From Candidatus Dichloromethanomonas elyunquensis (lineage in GTDB: Bacteria > Bacillota > Desulfitobacteriia > Desulfitobacteriales > Syntrophobotulaceae), in contig LNDB01000001.1 of assembly GCA_001515265.1 (NCBI GenBank), positions 143,044-207,043 on the forward strand: a stretch of 64,000 nt of DNA, written 5' to 3'. The notes under the pieces were generated by a model. That model saw nothing but the letters and a program-made list of their open reading frames with translations. It was not told the DNA's origin and made no database searches. Positions 441-54,644 of the stretch are shown piece by piece. How positions within the stretch are numbered: position 1 is the stretch's first letter; every line of letters begins with the position of its first letter. Position numbers and translations under genes: made by a program.

Positions 441-2861
441 TCATTCAAACTCTCTTTCATCCCGATACCTTCCCGGAATAATTTGAAACCCCTCATGATT
501 AATTTTCAATTCGATCGTGCCCTGTATATCCGTCCGGAATATCTTTATATTTCTCTCCTGCCAATAAGCAAGGACTTCAGGAGAGGGGTGTCCAAAACTA
601 TTTTTGCCAACGGAAATAAAGACCGCCTGAGGGTCTGTTTCATCAAACCAGGATGTATCCAACGCGCCTTTTGCCCCATGGTGCGGGATCTTGATAAAAT
701 TAGCCGACCACTTGACCCCCCTGTCGGAAATTTGCTGCATTTCTTCTTTTTCCATATCACCTGTCAGCAGAATCCTGCTCCCAAGATAATCAAGAAGCAA
801 AACCAAAGAATTATTGTTCGCGTCCGAAGCTGTCCCGCCGATAGTTGAAACCGGAGCCAATACTTCAATTTTCAGGCCTGAAGAAAACGCCAAGGTATCC
901 CCGGCCAGAAGCCTGACAAGCTGATCCCTCTTGTGAAGAAATTCCAAGGGGATTGCTTCCTGCCATTCCGGATTTTCCAACCGGTCACCGACTTCAGGTA
1001 CTCCTAATGCTTTTACGGGAATATTGGCCAGCAGGTACTTGGCTCCGCCGCAATGGTCGTGATCTTCATGGGTAATAAAAACCATATCCAGCTGTTTAAT
1101 TTGCTTCTCCATCAGATAAGGTACAAGGACGCGCTCTCCCGCATCATAATTCTCTTTTCTGGGTCCGGTATCGACAATGAGATTTTCCTCAGCGGTTTGA
1201 ATAAGCATGCAATCTCCCTGTCCTACATCCAAAAAGGTAATTGTAAGCATGTCGCTTTGCAGCCAAGGAAAATTTAACAAGAAAATAAAGACCGCAAGGA
1301 ATAGGCATTTAACACAAAAAAGTAAATTTTTATCTTGCATCCGGTTTTTGAAGGGTCTAGGGAGTCTCCGGCATTGTACGCGGAATATAAACCAGACTTT
1401 CTCCCTGCCGGCAAGCCATATGCCTAATGCAGCATACCATGCCATCCAAAATATTTTACCCGGATTTAACACCCAAAAATAAGCAAAAGGTAATGAAGCC
1501 GCCCAATGCAGGATAGAATCGCTAAACCGGAGCAGCCAAAATCCTGTTTGAAAAAATATCTTGGAAAGGGACGGGAATAAAACAAGAGCAGTTCCCAATA
1601 AACCGAATTGTAAAACCGCTCCTAAGATAAAAAGCGCGACTATGTTTGTCAAGAAACCTGCCAAGGAAATTGTGTGAAAGGCATTAATCAGGATAGGAAG
1701 AGCCGCGATCTGGGTGCTTAGGAAAACGGCCGCCAAAGTTCTGAGCGGACCGGGAAATTTTTGAAGCCACAAGTTTTTTTCCAGCCGCGGGGTCAATACA
1801 ATCATTCCCCAGGTCGCTGCAAAGGACAGCTGAAAACTAATATCCTTCAGATAGAGGGGTTTAGAAATGAACATCATAAGACCGGCGAACATCAGCCAAC
1901 GGAGGGAAGACATTTTTCCTTTTCCCATCCTCCCCGTCAGAACAGCTATGCCAAGGATGGCCGCCCGCAGGATAGGGGGATTGTACTGGCATAAGGCGGT
2001 ATAAAGAACCACAGCTCCAATTGTCCAAATAATTCTCACTTTTCGCGGCAGGAAAAAGAAGATTCCCCAGATCAGAGCGATCACAAAAGCAATATTTGAC
2101 CCCGAAGCCGCAAGAATATGCATTACGCCTGCAGCTTTATACATATTAAGGGTCTCCGCGGGTATCCGGCTGGAATCCCCGAACAGTATCCCATCCATGA
2201 TACCGCTCTGTTCCGGCCAGTTTATTTTTATCATATGGTTGACCTTCTCCCTTATCTTCCATGGGATGCCAGGTACTCCCTTATTCAAAAGTATTGCGTT
2301 GCCCTTAGCCGTAATTGACCCGCTCAATCCCCTGACTGCATTGTATAAGGGCAGATTAAATTGACCTTCTGTTCCCGGCTCTTGAGGTTGTTCCAATCTC
2401 CCTGCAAATCTTATCCTGTCCCCTTGTTCAACAATGTCCCATCCTTGATGAAACTGACCTTTGCTGTCCGCAAAAACATAAATAGCATATTTTTGACCAA
2501 GCCCTTCAGCATATTGCGGGGTATTTTCCAAAAGAATTACACCCTCAGCCTCAGCTTGGTCCATTTTCCACTGCTCAAGTTTTCCCTCCAACTCTATTTC
2601 CTGAATCAGAAGAGGAGGAGCGATAATCCTCTCTGCAGTCATTCCATATATAAATCCAATCAGAATTCCGGCTGCAAGGAAAGATATCTCAGGCTTGTAC
2701 ATTTTTCCCCAGAAATCCGAAGGTTTCCATAAAAACCATAACCGGATAAAAAGCAACACCAAAAAAGCCAGAATCCAAATCCTGACTTCCTGTTTAGGCT
2801 GAACTGCAATAAACCCGCCGCATACTACAGCTGCGGCTCTCCGCAATAATGGATCTTTCAT
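441..2861 (-). CDS. comEC: DNA internalization-related competence protein ComEC/Rec2
   Basis: 806 aa; competence membrane core plus C-terminal metallo-beta-lactamase-like domain (FLDVGQGDCMLIQT, THEDHDHCGG, IPHHGAKGA). Confidence 0.93.
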   Translation of the reverse strand: MKDPLLRRAAAVVCGGFIAVQPKQEVRIWILAFLVLLFIRLWFLWKPSDFWGKMYKPEISFLAAGILIGFIYGMTAERIIAPPLLIQEIELEGKLEQWKMDQAEAEGVILLENTPQYAEGLGQKYAIYVFADSKGQFHQGWDIVEQGDRIRFAGRLEQPQEPGTEGQFNLPLYNAVRGLSGSITAKGNAILLNKGVPGIPWKIREKVNHMIKINWPEQSGIMDGILFGDSSRIPAETLNMYKAAGVMHILAASGSNIAFVIALIWGIFFFLPRKVRIIWTIGAVVLYTALCQYNPPILRAAILGIAVLTGRMGKGKMSSLRWLMFAGLMMFISKPLYLKDISFQLSFAATWGMIVLTPRLEKNLWLQKFPGPLRTLAAVFLSTQIAALPILINAFHTISLAGFLTNIVALFILGAVLQFGLLGTALVLFPSLSKIFFQTGFWLLRFSDSILHWAASLPFAYFWVLNPGKIFWMAWYAALGIWLAGREKVWFIFRVQCRRLPRPFKNRMQDKNLLFCVKCLFLAVFIFLLNFPWLQSDMLTITFLDVGQGDCMLIQTAEENLIVDTGPRKENYDAGERVLVPYLMEKQIKQLDMVFITHEDHDHCGGAKYLLANIPVKALGVPEVGDRLENPEWQEAIPLEFLHKRDQLVRLLAGDTLAFSSGLKIEVLAPVSTIGGTASDANNNSLVLLLDYLGSRILLTGDMEKEEMQQISDRGVKWSANFIKIPHHGAKGALDTSWFDETDPQAVFISVGKNSFGHPSPEVLAYWQERNIKIFRTDIQGTIELKINHEGFQIIPGRYRDEREFE

Positions 2862-2890
2862 GATCGACCCCTGTCTTACGTCTAAAATGA

Positions 2891-3457
2891 TTATGGACCA
2901 ATCGTTACATAAGGTGCCATTTTCTCGTAGGTTTTCGGTCCTATTCCCGATACTTTTTGAATTTCTTCGGGACTGGAGAATAACCCGTTCTGCGTACGAT
3001 AGTCAATAATCCTTTGGGCGATTGCGGGCCCAATTCCCGGTATGGAGTCTAATTCCCCCACTCCGGCTTTATTAATATTAATCTTCACAGTCAACCCCGC
3101 GGAAGGGCTTTTTACAGCTGCATCCAAACTCCCCGTCTGTCCCGATTCTATAGGCAGTTTCGAAGGAACAACAATCTTCTGCCCATCTTTCAGTTTCTGA
3201 GCGGGATTAAGGACTTCAGTATCCGCGTCCGCCTGCAATCCTGCTTTTACGAGAGCATCCTCCAGCCTGGAATCAATCGGTAAATGGATTAGACCGGAAT
3301 GATTAACCGCACCGCCAATATAAACTGCAATCTCCCTGGAACTTTGGGATTCTTCTATTTTGACCGGAGTTTTTACGGGAAGAAAGAACTTTACCGCAGC
3401 CGCCAGTAAAAGGACTCCTAATACTCCCCACCAAAGGTACTTTAATCTTTTGTCCAT
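2891..3457 (-). CDS. comEA: ComEA-like helix-hairpin-helix DNA-binding protein with SLBB-type domain
   Basis: VNININKAGVGELDSIPGIGPAIAQRIIDYR...KVSGIGPKTYEKMAPYVTI; N-terminal TM; start at MDKRLKYLWW preferred over the longer ORF start. Confidence 0.9.
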   Translation of the reverse strand: MDKRLKYLWWGVLGVLLLAAAVKFFLPVKTPVKIEESQSSREIAVYIGGAVNHSGLIHLPIDSRLEDALVKAGLQADADTEVLNPAQKLKDGQKIVVPSKLPIESGQTGSLDAAVKSPSAGLTVKININKAGVGELDSIPGIGPAIAQRIIDYRTQNGLFSSPEEIQKVSGIGPKTYEKMAPYVTIGP

Positions 3458-3658
3458 GTTTCCATCCCTCAAATAACAAACCCGCAACTAATTTACATAT
3501 TTTGTTATTATTCTCCATTTAATTCCAAACTCCTTTTATTATTTATCTTTTTCACCAACGTCCTTACAAAAAAAAGATTACCTTTTTATTCCAGGCGCAT
3601 ACATTATATTAGCCTTATTGTTAATGGCAATATTGTAAGAAGGAGGTAATTTAGGTTC

Positions 3659-3949
3659 ATGACATTATTTAAAAATACCCAGATAAATTACGCTATGTTA
3701 GCGCCCCATGTCGGAAAACGGGCTACCGTCAGTCTCTACGGCGGCAAAACCTATCACGGTGAAATTGTCGCTGTCCGTCAGGATGGTATCCTATTTCACT
3801 CCGACAATCCGGGATTCCTCTTCCTTCCCTTTCTAGCGGTAGCTGCGTTAGCGCTTACGGTTCCTCTCGCCTTCGGTGTCGGATACGGAGCCGGCAGACG
3901 CGCTTACGGTCCTTATCCTTATCCCTACCCCTCCCCCTATTACTACTAA
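3659..3949 (+). CDS. small hypothetical membrane protein with YP-rich C-terminal tail
   Basis: 96 aa with aaggaggtaat RBS-like sequence upstream; one hydrophobic segment, then GVGYGAGRRAYGPYPYPYPSPYYY. Confidence 0.7.
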   Translation: MTLFKNTQINYAMLAPHVGKRATVSLYGGKTYHGEIVAVRQDGILFHSDNPGFLFLPFLAVAALALTVPLAFGVGYGAGRRAYGPYPYPYPSPYYY

Positions 3950-4132
3950 ATACCGATCTTTAATTTCTTATGTTATCAATCTGACCGGAATCAATAAAAC
4001 GGGGAAGTAATCTTCTGTATGCTTCCCTGTTTTTTTCTCCGCAAACACCTTTCTTTACGCCTATCATACATTAGAAGTAACTTCTTGCAGTTTAAGAACC
4101 TATTTAGAATAAAAAACACGGAGGATAAAAAA

Positions 4133-4987
4133 ATGTTTGAAAATTTAGTTCCCTTAGCCAAAGGGAATAAAAAACAAAGCCCGCCCCTCCCAGCCTCCAT
4201 GATGGATATGACCTTCAAAGAAATTGAGCAGGCGGCAACAGGAGGGGGCACTGTGCTGCTGCCAATTTCTGCAATAGAAGAATATGGTCCCCATCTCCCT
4301 GTTGCTGCCAATACTTATCTAACCAACCGAATATGTTTGAAACTGAGAGAAAAACTTTGGGAACAGAAAAAAAACTGTGTGATCGGTCCTCCTCTTTTTT
4401 GGGGGAGGAACTATTCTACAGGTTCTTTTCCCGGTTCATTCAACCTGAAATCACAGACACTGGTCAATCTTTTACTCGATATTCTTTCGGATTTTACGCG
4501 CTGGGGTTTCGGCACTATCATCCTTGTCAACATTCATGGGGATCCGCACCATAATACCGCAATCATTCAGGCCGTTAAACTTGCTAGAAATGAAAAAAGC
4601 AACGTATTTTTTCTTGTGCCCCAGCAAAGCTTGCCTCAGTACAATTTAACTGAAGCGGAAAACTTCGCCATTGTTTATAACATGCCTGCTTTTACATCCC
4701 CTTCTCTATATGTTGACCTTCATGCCGGTACTTTTGAAACGAGCTGGATGACAGCGGCTTTTCCGGATCTTGTCAACACAAAGCTGGCAAAGCATCTTCA
4801 GTCCACCAAGACAACCCTTGATGAAGCGGCTGTATGGTCCAAAGGATGGGATGAAGTTAAGAGAGCCTTCCCATTAGGGTACTGCGGCAACCCCTCCAGG
4901 ACTGAAGTCAAAAACGCCAAGGAATTTGAATCTAACATTGTGGAACAGATGGCAAGCGCCATACTCCTGAAAGGCTGTTTACAGTAA
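4133..4987 (+). CDS. creatininase-family (creatinine amidohydrolase-like) protein
   Basis: GGGTVLLPISAIEEYGPHLPVAANT, NIHGDPHHN, DLHAGTFETSWM are creatininase-family metal-site style motifs; start MFENLVPL. Confidence 0.85.
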   Translation: MFENLVPLAKGNKKQSPPLPASMMDMTFKEIEQAATGGGTVLLPISAIEEYGPHLPVAANTYLTNRICLKLREKLWEQKKNCVIGPPLFWGRNYSTGSFPGSFNLKSQTLVNLLLDILSDFTRWGFGTIILVNIHGDPHHNTAIIQAVKLARNEKSNVFFLVPQQSLPQYNLTEAENFAIVYNMPAFTSPSLYVDLHAGTFETSWMTAAFPDLVNTKLAKHLQSTKTTLDEAAVWSKGWDEVKRAFPLGYCGNPSRTEVKNAKEFESNIVEQMASAILLKGCLQ

Positions 4988-5000
4988 ATCCATTAAGTAT

Positions 5001-5029
5001 TTGACAGTCCCGGAAAGAGACACTATACT
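5001..5029 (+). promoter_or_regulatory. sigma-A type promoter of the Phd-Uma2 gene
   Basis: TTGACA (5001-5006), 17-nt spacer, TATACT (5024-5029). Confidence 0.7.
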
Positions 5030-5031
5030 CT

Positions 5032-5077
5032 AATTAGCTAAATATTTTAATTAGCTAATTTAGCAATATGGCTAATT
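5032..5077 (+). promoter_or_regulatory. three operator-like repeats phased at 17 bp
   Basis: AATTAGCTAAAT (5032), perfect palindrome AATTAGCTAATT (5049), ATATGGCTAATT (5066). Confidence 0.6.
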
Positions 5078-5090
5078 GGAGGCGGGTCAA

Positions 5091-5810
5091 ATGGAAGTTT
5101 CATCAACTGACGCGCAGAATAATTTTGGCCGTTACATGAAACTGGCTTGGTTCGAAGATGTTGTGGTCACAAAAAACGGGAAAAAGGCAGTCGTCATTAA
5201 ACGCTACGAAGAATCGGGAAAGAATTCTTCCGTCATAGCCGAAAAGACCGAACCCTATACCTGGGATAAAGAAATAATCACCTATGAGGACTTTCTAAAG
5301 CTCAGCGAGGCAAGCGAAAACCGTTATGAGTATATTGACGGGGAAGTTTACCTGTTAGCTTCTCCTACCTATGATCACCAAAATATTATCGTGGAAATCA
5401 TTACTGTAATGCATACTTATTTCAAAGGAAAAACATGCCGCCCCCTTACATCCCCCTTTGATGTCACTTTGACTGTTGATGACAAAAAGAATGTCGTCCA
5501 ACCCGATATTGTGGTGATCTGCGATACGGAAAATATTAATGAAAAAGGCAGGTATACAGGCACACCCACCTTGGTATTAGAAGTATTGTCCGAATCAACC
5601 CAAAAAAAAGATCTGCTGAAAAAGCTGAATCTTTATCTGCATGCCGGTATCAGAGAATACTGGATTGTCAACCCGCTGCGCAAAGAAGTCTATTTATACC
5701 GCTTCGGACAACAGGACATTGAGGAATACCGCGTATACCAAGGCAGCGAGACGGCACATTCCTCCGCTTTTAACGGCTTGGCCATTCCCCTGGAACAGTT
5801 GTTTGTTTGA
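5091..5810 (+). CDS. Phd/YefM antitoxin-like N-terminal domain fused to Uma2-family (DUF820) PD-(D/E)xK-type nuclease domain
   Basis: N-term MEVSSTDAQNNFGRYMKLAWFEDVVVTKNGKKAVVIKRYEE (Phd-like); C-term YEDFLKLSEASENRYEYIDGEVYLLASPTYDHQNI...VQPDIVVICD...PTLVLEVLSESTQKKDLLKKLNLYLHAGIREYWIVNP (Uma2). Confidence 0.88.
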   Translation: MEVSSTDAQNNFGRYMKLAWFEDVVVTKNGKKAVVIKRYEESGKNSSVIAEKTEPYTWDKEIITYEDFLKLSEASENRYEYIDGEVYLLASPTYDHQNIIVEIITVMHTYFKGKTCRPLTSPFDVTLTVDDKKNVVQPDIVVICDTENINEKGRYTGTPTLVLEVLSESTQKKDLLKKLNLYLHAGIREYWIVNPLRKEVYLYRFGQQDIEEYRVYQGSETAHSSAFNGLAIPLEQLFV

Positions 5811-5843
5811 TAAAGCATGCCTTTGGATATCCGGAAAAATAGT

Positions 5844-51154: not shown

Positions 51155-51229
51155 GGGCCTATAGCTCAGCGGTAGAGCGGCCGGCTCATAACCGGTTGGT
51201 CCCTGGTTCGATCCCAGGTGGGCCCACCA
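51155..51229 (+). tRNA. CAT-anticodon tRNA: elongator Met or lysidine-type Ile2
   Basis: GGGCCTATAGCTCAGCGGTAGAGCGGCCGGCTCATAACCGGTTGGTCCCTGGTTCGATCCCAGGTGGGCCCACCA. Confidence 0.93.
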
Positions 51230-51250
51230 AAATTGATAATTATTTATAAA

Positions 51251-51278
51251 AATAGTTCTTATTTAAGGACTATTTTTT
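51251..51278 (+). terminator. terminator after the tRNA pair
   Basis: AATAGTTCTT ATTT AAGGACTATT then TTTT. Confidence 0.7.
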
Positions 51279-51876
51279 ATTCTAGATAATTAGATATGAG
51301 TTCACACAGTTTGGGGATTGAGGATATCTTTCCAGCATTAGAATACTCGATACGTTTTGTTATGCTATTCCATTTCATAACGCCCAAATTATGTTCATGT
51401 AAGTCTAGCTCCTCTTTTGCTTTTCCCTGATGAACACCCACTATTCTAGTAATATTAGTAATGTCTGGGTTGTTATGCAAAATAGTTGTTAAACGAGGGC
51501 TAATTTGACCATCAACGTTAATCAATAAACCCAACTTAGAATCTGAAATTAAACAGTAGCCGATTAACTGGGACAGTTCTTTTAAGCCAACTGCCTTTAA
51601 GTCTTTAATCTCGCATATAAGGATTTCAAATAGGCCTTTAGCATTCATAATAACAATAAAAATATCTAAATCGAGAGGAGCAACTGCATCAGCAAAAACA
51701 GTTAAAAATAGACTAGGAAAAATTGACTTATCTTTTATAAGTTTATCAATACCTTTTTTCAACTCCCCTGTTGCACCAGTTATTAAGTATTTCTTTCCCA
51801 TAGCTTGAAAGTTACTATTCAACTGCAAAATTAAATAATCCAAAATCTCATTATAAAAAGTTTGCTCATTACTCAC
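51277..51876 (-). CDS. putative PD-(D/E)xK-type restriction nuclease subunit
   Basis: LDLDIFIVIMNAKGLFEILICEIKDLKAVGLKELSQLIGYCLIS: D...ExK core followed by QxxxY helix; operon with DNA methyltransferase. Confidence 0.55.
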   Translation of the reverse strand: MSNEQTFYNEILDYLILQLNSNFQAMGKKYLITGATGELKKGIDKLIKDKSIFPSLFLTVFADAVAPLDLDIFIVIMNAKGLFEILICEIKDLKAVGLKELSQLIGYCLISDSKLGLLINVDGQISPRLTTILHNNPDITNITRIVGVHQGKAKEELDLHEHNLGVMKWNSITKRIEYSNAGKISSIPKLCELISNYLE

Positions 51877-53270
51877 TCAAAATCCTCTTCTCTTATTGCT
51901 CTGACCTTATACCCAAATTCGCTGTCTTTTTCAATTAACTTTTTATAGACTCCAGGGTTTTCTGGTCCAACTAATGCTCCAAAATTAGTACCCAATATTT
52001 TAATCGGAGTAAGTTTATCAGGCATATAAATATTGATATGTTTAATTGTATCATTACTAATTGCATCTTCGATACTCCTTATAAAGTTACCTGATGTCCT
52101 CTTACCCCTTGAAGTCCTGCTTTCCATTGAAAGTACAGCTGCTAAGGCTTGTAATACCTTATTTACTGGATAACCGCTTTTATCTTTAGAATTTCCCCAT
52201 ATCAGAGTATTGGGGTCTCTTTTATATATCTCAATAAGTTTCTCAACTTTAACTTCATATTTTGTATATGTGCGATTCTTTAAAACTTCTTCAGATTCTA
52301 GAATCTTGTTTATTTGATCTACCCTTGCCTTTGTAATAACCGTGAAAGGCGTAATATAACATTCTAGATTATCTAAAATAGGTTTTAACTGGTTTTTAGG
52401 CACATATGGACAGCCAAACATTGCACATAAATGTTTATGATGGACAAAATGATAACCTCTTAGGTTTTTGGGAATCCAAAAATTATCTTCATCGATATGA
52501 ACCGGTTTAATACCATTAACATTTATCCGCCTATCTAAGCAAGAATTAGCTTCATGTTCCTCTGTCTTTTCCTTTTCAATATTTTCTTTAGCAGCTTCAA
52601 GTTTAGCATTAAAAACAAAAGAACCTTTTTTTGTATATTGGTCTAAGAGAACACGAATCTTGAATCCCTTTTTCCAAGTGCCATAATAGTGACCATAGTA
52701 ACGGTCATTGCCACTATGCTGATTTGGATGATTCCAAAGAATTTGGTCAGCAAAACATTTAATTTCATTCAAAAGCTGACAAATTTCAAAAACTAATCGG
52801 AAATTATCTCCCGAAAACTCAAATGAAATTATCTGATAATCATCATTAAATCTTCTATGAGAATTTACCACGCTTCCAATAGAATCTGCAAGACCTGCAA
52901 TAAACTGTCTCTTTAAATTTTCATCACACAAATAAGGAATGAGATTTTCTATACCGGCATTTTTTCGTAACTCTCCACCGTTAACAATCCCAAACTTATG
53001 TAAATCATCTGTTAGTTTTTCTAAATTACCGGTACATACTATGCTCCATTCAGGTTCAGGATTAAATGTTACTGATATATCATATTCGTTTTCAAAGACT
53101 GGTTTCACTTTAAGAAGAATATCAGATGCAATTTTACCAGCCCTAATGGGATTACTGATTACTTTTCCCCATCTTTTATATGGTAGAACAATAATCAAAT
53201 TTGACTTTGTGGGATTAATAATACCGCCGCCGATAATTAGACCTAGCAGATACGCTTTATCATTATTCAT
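51873..53270 (-). CDS. protein with two degenerate LAGLIDADG-like motifs (R-M-linked, function unknown)
   Basis: P1-like AYLLGLIIGGGII, P2-like QFIAGLADSIGSVV plus ISFEFSGDNFRLVFEICQLLNEI; start MNNDKAYLL preferred; stop overlaps the next gene's start by 4 nt. Confidence 0.6.
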   Translation of the reverse strand: MNNDKAYLLGLIIGGGIINPTKSNLIIVLPYKRWGKVISNPIRAGKIASDILLKVKPVFENEYDISVTFNPEPEWSIVCTGNLEKLTDDLHKFGIVNGGELRKNAGIENLIPYLCDENLKRQFIAGLADSIGSVVNSHRRFNDDYQIISFEFSGDNFRLVFEICQLLNEIKCFADQILWNHPNQHSGNDRYYGHYYGTWKKGFKIRVLLDQYTKKGSFVFNAKLEAAKENIEKEKTEEHEANSCLDRRINVNGIKPVHIDEDNFWIPKNLRGYHFVHHKHLCAMFGCPYVPKNQLKPILDNLECYITPFTVITKARVDQINKILESEEVLKNRTYTKYEVKVEKLIEIYKRDPNTLIWGNSKDKSGYPVNKVLQALAAVLSMESRTSRGKRTSGNFIRSIEDAISNDTIKHINIYMPDKLTPIKILGTNFGALVGPENPGVYKKLIEKDSEFGYKVRAIREEDFE

Positions 53271-53289
53271 TTCTTTAACTTCCTTTGGT

Positions 53290-54294
53290 TTAGAAAACTT
53301 GCTTTTTGATTTCTTGAGCAAATACTTCCGCTAATTTTGGAGGTACTGCATTTCCTATTACCTTATACATTGAAGTTATATCCTTTAAAGAATTATCGAT
53401 AAATAAAAAATCATCAGGGAAAGTTTGTATTCTAGCAATTTCACGTATGTTATATCTTCTATTTTCCACCGGGTGAATTATGCCACAATTTTCTGGTTGT
53501 GCAGATGCTGTAATCGTTCCATTTATTTCTCTTCTTGAAAAACGTCTATAGAAATTTGGAGACCTATATTTTTGCATATTATCTCTTATCTTTTTTAATC
53601 TAGTTGGTAATAACTCATAAGGAATATCCTTCCAAGACCCGCCCTCTGGAATATGTTCAATAAGATTCCTCGCTTGTGGTGATAGCTTCCAATCTATTTG
53701 ATTAGGGATATTACCAGAAATATTCAGAAGATTCCCTACTTCAAGCCCATCTTTTTTAAAAACAGCCGGAAATTCAAAGGTATGTTTTAAATCTTTTCTA
53801 ATCCCTATCATGATGACTCTATAACGATTCTGCGGTACTTTATAATCACTTGCATTAACCAGCTTATAAACAACATTATATCCTTGTCCGATATTCTCCA
53901 GGGTTTCTTTTATTGTACATATTAGTTTATTTCCATTTTCGTCTTTTGTAGAAAGAATACCCCTAACATTTTCGAAAATGACTACTTTAGGATGTTTTTT
54001 TTCAATAATCCTAAAACATTCTTTATATAAAACACCACGTTTATCAAAAACGCCTTTTCTGTTACCTGCATTGGAAAAAGGTTGACAAGGAAATCCTGCA
54101 ATGAGTACATAACATTCAGGAATTTCAGAAGCACTTACATCTCTAATATCTCTTTCATCAATATTTCCCAGATTTAACTTATATATCTTCTGTGCATCTT
54201 TATCAATATCATCAGCGTATACTATTTCATATCCTGCATTTAAAAAACCTAAATCCATCCCACCGCAACCTGAAAATAAGGAAACAATTTTCAT
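53290..54294 (-). CDS. DNA (cytosine-5-)-methyltransferase
   Basis: MKIVSLFSGCGGMDLGFLNAG; GFPCQPFSNAG (PCQ); FENVRG (ENV); QNRYRVIMIG; YKVIGNAVPPKLAE. Confidence 0.95.
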   Translation of the reverse strand: MKIVSLFSGCGGMDLGFLNAGYEIVYADDIDKDAQKIYKLNLGNIDERDIRDVSASEIPECYVLIAGFPCQPFSNAGNRKGVFDKRGVLYKECFRIIEKKHPKVVIFENVRGILSTKDENGNKLICTIKETLENIGQGYNVVYKLVNASDYKVPQNRYRVIMIGIRKDLKHTFEFPAVFKKDGLEVGNLLNISGNIPNQIDWKLSPQARNLIEHIPEGGSWKDIPYELLPTRLKKIRDNMQKYRSPNFYRRFSRREINGTITASAQPENCGIIHPVENRRYNIREIARIQTFPDDFLFIDNSLKDITSMYKVIGNAVPPKLAEVFAQEIKKQVF

Positions 54295-54433
54295 CTTATT
54301 CAGCCCTTCCAAGCATAATATGGCTCATGCACACATTCTACTTGGGTAGCTAAAATTCCTGCTCATGTTAATGCTTATGAAATGATTAAGTCTCGAATTT
54401 GATACACTCTGCCATAATTTTCCTAAAAACAAC

Positions 54434-54470
54434 AAATAAGCGGATATGATTTAAACTAAAGTGAATCATA
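54434..54470 (-). terminator. hairpin plus T-tract downstream of tRNA-Gln
   Basis: GCGGATATGATT/AATCATAACCGC stem (one mismatch); minus strand continues TATTTGTTGTTTTT. Confidence 0.6.
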
Positions 54471-54569
54471 ACCGCCTCAAGTTAAAACATTTATTCTTTT
54501 TTTGCTAATATACAACCTTAGACAAACAGAACCAACAAAAAGGGCGGGAAACAGAATTTTAGCAATAAA

Positions 54570-54644
54570 TGGCTGGGGTAGATGGATTCGAACCACCGGA
54601 TGTCGGAGTCAGAGTCCGATGCCTTACCGCTTGGCGATACCCCA
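54570..54644 (-). tRNA. tRNA-Gln(CTG), CCA encoded
   Basis: TGGGGTATCGCCAAGCGGTAAGGCATCGGACTCTGACTCCGACATCCGGTGGTTCGAATCCATCTACCCCAGCCA. Confidence 0.95.

Follow-up and report, generated by a model that had tools for sequence, protein, structure and literature searches.

Gene layout of the M-L-R block

We analysed a 64,000-nt stretch of DNA (the window; contig LNDB01000001.1, positions 143,044 to 207,043 of the forward strand) from Candidatus Dichloromethanomonas elyunquensis, whose assembly (G000) is incomplete (82% complete). Our subject is a single co-directional block of three genes on the minus strand of the window, which encode a C5-cytosine DNA methyltransferase (M), a protein with two LAGLIDADG-like motifs (L) and a small putative nuclease (R; Table 1). 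An earlier note, made from the DNA sequence alone, had placed L between a C5-methyltransferase and a putative nuclease, and the PF00145 domain in M and the PD-(D/E)XK signature in R bear this out. The coordinates it gave for L hold as well, with the ATG at 53270 as the better start and a product of 465 amino acids (aa); its length of 482 aa does not, being that of a mechanical open reading frame (ORF) from a TTG at 53321. The ATG lies about 20 bases past the M stop codon with a AAAGGAAG ribosome-binding sequence in front of it, and homologues of L begin at the equivalent position. The L stop and the R start share four bases, with R translationally coupled to L.

Table 1. Features of the M-L-R locus in window coordinates, and regions of the L protein
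Feature	Position	Strand	Evidence or remark
M, C5-cytosine DNA methyltransferase, 340 aa	53290..54312	-	PF00145, E 2e-80; PADLOC MTase_II, E 4e-97
L, LAGLIDADG-fold protein, 465 aa, proposed recognition subunit	51873..53270	-	AlphaFold2, Foldseek, hhalign, 27 distinct loci
P1 motif LLGLIIGGG, L residues 8-16	53223..53249	-	sequence and alignment
P2 motif IAGLADSIG, L residues 124-132	52875..52901	-	sequence and alignment
R, predicted 199-aa minimal PD-(D/E)XK nuclease	51277..51876	-	invariant residues, AlphaFold2, Foldseek
Low-G+C segment (about 32%) holding the whole M-L-R system	51230..54569	.	flanks 40-48% G+C
tRNA-Met, one side of the M-L-R block	51155-51229		
tRNA-Gln, other side of the M-L-R block	54570-54644		
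Two LAGLIDADG repeats	L residues 1-240		
Conserved H/R/G-rich tail common to short relatives	L residues 241-300		
Domain of unknown type	L residues 301-465		

Fold and motifs of L

Judged by its predicted structure and by profile comparison, L is a member of the LAGLIDADG superfamily. The AlphaFold2 model, made from a 20-homologue alignment (predicted local distance difference test, pLDDT, 87.6; predicted template-modelling score, pTM, 0.84), opens with a repeat consisting of a helix (residues 3-15), two strands (16-19 and 24-28), a second helix (41-63), two further strands (66-70 and 76-80) and a third helix (84-92), and the identical order of elements restarts at the helix formed by residues 117-131. 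A Foldseek search of the PDB with this model returned 30 matches with E <= 0.001, the best with 4.6e-6; all were LAGLIDADG endonucleases, inteins or WhiA, with no unrelated fold among them, the outcome that the earlier note had named as speaking against its proposal. I-Tsp061I matched the model with a template-modelling score of 0.64 by target length, and Foldseek against BFVD likewise supports a LAGLIDADG fold. When the N-terminal profile of the L family was aligned by hhalign with intein LAGLIDADG domains from archaeal genomes, it reached a probability of 96% (E 2e-9, 205 columns) and kept P1 and P2 in register; against the same domains, R as a negative control stayed below 1% and WhiA as a positive control reached 92%. 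The two motifs noticed earlier (P1, L8-G16; P2, I124-G132; 116 residues apart) are no chance resemblance, with model, structural search and profile comparison in agreement.

Sequence searches with L against Pfam, NCBIfam, PADLOC and the PDB returned sub-threshold matches only, among them a weak Pfam Hom_end match (E 0.05, below cut-off); matches to ETV6 and MMS21 were rejected as chance-level. The C-terminal half, which the earlier note could not recognise either, gave nothing convincing in the same libraries or in the PDB by sequence, and the extra 165-residue domain of the long L proteins is well folded in the AlphaFold2 model. Across the family alignment, the LAGLIDADG part is more conserved than the rest of the protein.

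Like the LAGLIDADG homing endonucleases (I-DmoI, I-Tsp061I, and the TliVMA and PI-SceI inteins), L has two pseudo-symmetric alpha-beta-beta-alpha-beta-beta-alpha repeats (Foldseek E 4.6e-6 to 1e-3). Unlike them, it carries an additional tail and C-terminal domain, lies outside any intron or intein, is linked to a methyltransferase and a PD-(D/E)XK nuclease, and has lost both metal-binding acids. An active enzyme of this group carries acidic residues at position 8 of both motifs; in L these positions are G15 and I131, the penultimate motif residues to which the earlier note had drawn attention, and they also fall at the acids in the intein alignment. Residue 15 is G in all 19 rows of the 20-row family alignment that have a residue there, and residue 131 is I or V in 20 of 20. 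Short relatives of L (see below) have N, R or G at the first position and T, A or V at the second, and wherever the motifs were readable, none of 27 loci had an acid at either position. The absence first seen in one protein therefore extends across the family, which argues for an old loss maintained by conservation, as opposed to the decay of a single copy, and L seems, from its sequence, to be catalytically dead. Nor does it behave as a mobile homing element, whether intron- or intein-borne or free-standing, since it sits in M-L-R operons at unrelated loci.

Could L nick or cut through other acids, so that the system, like a Type IIT heterodimer, would have two different catalytic sites? D129 is invariant, and in BspD6I the large recognising subunit does cut one strand while the small subunit cuts the other, according to excerpts of a 2014 review of Type II enzymes (PMC4081073). 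On the other hand, D129 is position 6 of the P2 motif and not the metal-ligand position, and the position 8 acid is absent from both motifs in every readable member, so we regard an active L as very unlikely.

The putative nuclease R

Residues D71, E89, K91, Q103 and Y107 of R are invariant in long and short systems alike. They make up a PD-(D/E)XK signature (D71, E89-x-K91) with a QxxxY motif, by which we assign R as a predicted PD-(D/E)XK nuclease, as the earlier note had surmised. The protein is only 165-200 aa long across the family and is modelled by AlphaFold2 with a pLDDT of 92.2. Among 399 genomes, strong matches to R occurred solely beside L.

As Vsr genes commonly accompany C5 methyltransferases, R might instead be a Vsr-type T:G mismatch repair enzyme serving M, leaving L unrelated to restriction. 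This is extremely improbable, because R also adjoins an N4/N6 methyltransferase, and because a true Vsr (PF03852, E 1e-26 to 4e-32) is encoded by a separate gene close to R or immediately downstream of it in three loci (L007 3907-4353, L017 8772-9218 and L021 7989-8426, at or near the 3' end of M-L-R).

Distribution and gene neighbourhoods of the L family

L was searched for in 85,462 species genomes and in viral contigs, plasmids, phages and sampled whole genomes, yielding 27 distinct loci in Bacillota, Bacteroidota, Proteobacteria, archaea, two phages, two viral contigs and L. plantarum plasmids. A DNA methyltransferase adjoins L in all 27, and R adjoins it in 26. Long-type L proteins account for 21 loci, where M lies upstream and R downstream with order and direction kept; the hosts include Syntrophomonas palmitatica and Parablautia muri (Bacillota), Bacteroidota, alpha- and delta-proteobacterial assemblies, the archaea Methanocorpusculum and Methanimicrococcus, and one viral contig. 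Identity of these relatives to the window proteins is about 56-68% for M, 37-44% for L and 38-44% for R. Two members depart from this pattern: in L018, about 4.4 kb (1420-5816) of unrelated ORFs, one of them of 947 aa, separate a frameshifted M from an L that lacks about 65 N-terminal residues, which we take to be a decaying copy or a misassembly, and in L023 L is frameshifted. A weak LAGLIDADG-like match in a 922-aa frame of G111 (L031; E 9e-4) was set aside as an unrelated gene.

The system is rare. Apart from the window genome, 2 of 398 genomes of the phylum had it, one of these being a short-L match only, and L was absent from 150 genomes related to the window genome; samples of 248 and 243 genomes held one and two copies, each count including a centre genome picked for having the system. 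Such rarity combined with scatter across domains points to horizontal spread. An empty-site comparison found the tRNA-Asn/tRNA-Met pair not to be syntenic in relatives, so insertion of M-L-R between tRNA genes is unproven.

The operon layout also bears on whether L might be a regulator, similar to WhiA or to a controller (C) protein, with R alone as the restriction enzyme. WhiA/DUF199 keeps the LAGLIDADG fold minus the catalytic residues and has taken on another job as a transcription factor (PMC3781837), and it is a structural match of L. The tail of the short L proteins (e.g. SWTDLAxxLGY) might even form a small helix-turn-helix (HTH). C protein genes usually lie upstream of the methyltransferase and restriction genes, whereas L is the co-translated middle gene between M and R; moreover, L is kept wherever R is kept, and an R of this size has little room for site recognition of its own. 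The WhiA models of Pfam do not match L, and a separate WhiA is encoded elsewhere in the window genome. Unlike L, a rare mobile gene in a restriction operon, WhiA occurs widely as a regulator and has an HTH at its C-terminus. A regulatory role for L is, in our view, unlikely.

Pairing of L and R with different methyltransferases

In the six remaining loci, L is about 285-330 aa long and stops past the conserved tail (H258, R271 and G272 in window numbering). Two L. plantarum plasmids, which carry an identical gene trio and were counted once, and two phages have the order methyltransferase, L, R, and their methyltransferase combines an EcoRI-type N6-methyladenine (m6A) enzyme (PF13651, E 6e-118) and a C5 enzyme (PF00145, E 3e-72) in one fusion protein. 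The viral contig L039 encodes EcoRI-type m6A and C5 methyltransferases as separate genes. In L024, from a Methanomassiliicoccales assembly, L-R is convergent with an N4/N6 methyltransferase, and in L003 (G117, 1516-2370) a short L stopping at an in-frame TAG adjoins an N4/N6 methyltransferase, R being absent. The L-R pair thus persists while the methyltransferase varies (C5; m6A and C5, fused or split; N4/N6), which places L on the restriction side of the system rather than making it the helper of one methyltransferase. Only the short L queries reached plasmids and phages, the window L giving no tblastn match to such replicons and the L003 protein none in a viral scan. Existing plasmid and phage annotations label L and R as hypothetical.

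Several of these loci have further neighbours. L003 lies near IS3-type transposase genes. The two phages, human-gut members of Ca. Heliusvirales, carry the m6A/C5-L-R module near the genome end (L035 609-4110; L036 622-4165), in one case adjoining an excisionase, and the module is likely phage-borne restriction cargo. Downstream of R in L039 (6403-8991) is an 862-aa PHP/SMC-like ATPase ORF, possibly another defence gene.

The solved methyltransferases nearest to M are M.HaeIII and M.HhaI, which match mainly over the catalytic region. The last part of the target-recognition region is among the most conserved stretches of M, as expected if all C5-type members have one common site. Among plasmids, the nearest relatives of M (57-59% identity; L037 3757-8755 and L038 779-5062) have an AAA ATPase and a protein of unknown type beside them in place of L-R, indicating that this type of M is common to unlike restriction modules.

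A proposed restriction system with a LAGLIDADG recognition subunit

We conclude that the block probably encodes a Type II-like restriction system, whose endonuclease would consist of the minimal PD-(D/E)XK nuclease R together with the dead LAGLIDADG protein L as its recognition partner. As in Type II systems, a separate methyltransferase gene stands beside the putative endonuclease genes. M would methylate a cytosine in host copies of the target sequence; we infer that the beta-sheet saddle of L still binds and reads this target without cutting it, and that R, which has little beyond a catalytic core, is brought into a complex by L to cleave DNA that is unmethylated, at this site or close by. 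A division of labour in which L reads and R cuts is the simplest account of an almost bare catalytic core beside a sequence-reading fold devoid of its acids.

Some observations weigh against this proposal. L003 has an L with no R. Pfam gives no confident assignment for R (PDDEXK_3 at E 0.0022, below cut-off), and the Foldseek matches of R are weak, the best being BsaWI (E 2.4e-3, probability 0.99), followed by PaqCI, EndoMS and RPB5, all of which we take to be PD-(D/E)XK or derived folds. The beta strands of L are barely more conserved than its helices, so that conservation alone marks no DNA-reading face. Finally, specific DNA binding by WhiA is mostly due to its separate HTH domain (PMC3781837), and by analogy the tail or the C-terminal domain of L could be the reader.

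In that case, L would still be a recognition subunit, with the LAGLIDADG part serving as a scaffold or as a docking platform for R. The WhiA precedent (PMC3781837) and the well-folded additional 165-residue domain of the long L proteins speak for such an arrangement, which we nevertheless hold to be quite unlikely: short-L systems are without the domain and still have R and a methyltransferase, the LAGLIDADG part is the more conserved one, and co-variation of the C-terminal domain is stronger with R than with M. With M removed, distances between C-terminal domains track those between R proteins (partial r 0.63-0.87), a hint that R may dock on this domain, though the co-variation is modest, the domain and R both evolve fast, and short-L systems lack the domain altogether. 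A first result in which the N-terminal part of L tracked M was lost once outliers were removed, and only the C-terminal link with R held.

Comparison with known systems suggests where the novelty lies. Type II restriction enzymes mostly follow three catalytic themes, PD-(D/E)XK, HNH and GIY-YIG, and the excerpts of the 2014 review describe two-subunit enzymes, none of them with a LAGLIDADG subunit (PMC4081073). Closest among these are the Type IIT enzymes (BspD6I/BstNBI, BtsI, BsrDI), in which, by the same excerpts, a large recognising subunit is joined by a small catalytic one that lacks specificity (186 aa in BspD6I; PMC4081073). The Type IIT large subunit also has a catalytic site, so that each subunit contributes one of two different sites, and is not known to adopt the LAGLIDADG fold, whereas L has no recognisable catalytic site. 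Recognition and cleavage also reside on different polypeptides in systems with Type I specificity (S) subunits or other separate specificity subunits; unlike Type I, M-L-R has neither a translocase nor an S fold of the target-recognition-domain type, and M has its own target-recognition region. The literature searched, which did not cover REBASE, contained no report of a LAGLIDADG protein as part of a restriction-modification system or as a specificity subunit. The new element would therefore be the sort of recognition subunit, the Type II-like system itself being known.

Single-chain LAGLIDADG proteins read asymmetric sites. The m6A and C5 methyltransferases of the short systems would fit such reading, and also the rule, given in the review excerpts, that asymmetric-site enzymes usually need one methyltransferase per strand (PMC4081073). 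On balance, we lean towards seeing here a new class of restriction enzyme, spread by phages and plasmids among bacteria and archaea, in which a dead LAGLIDADG protein is the dedicated recognition subunit of a minimal PD-(D/E)XK nuclease, and whose m6A and C5 members may modify a different base in each strand of an asymmetric site and so protect it. If so, a selfish homing endonuclease would have been disarmed and put to use for aiming a defence system. Next to WhiA, this would be a second case in which the LAGLIDADG fold was domesticated, here with a testable role in reading DNA. It would also provide a naturally occurring, mobile enzyme of two parts, one for reading and one for cutting, with a bearing on how restriction specificity evolves and on engineered nucleases.
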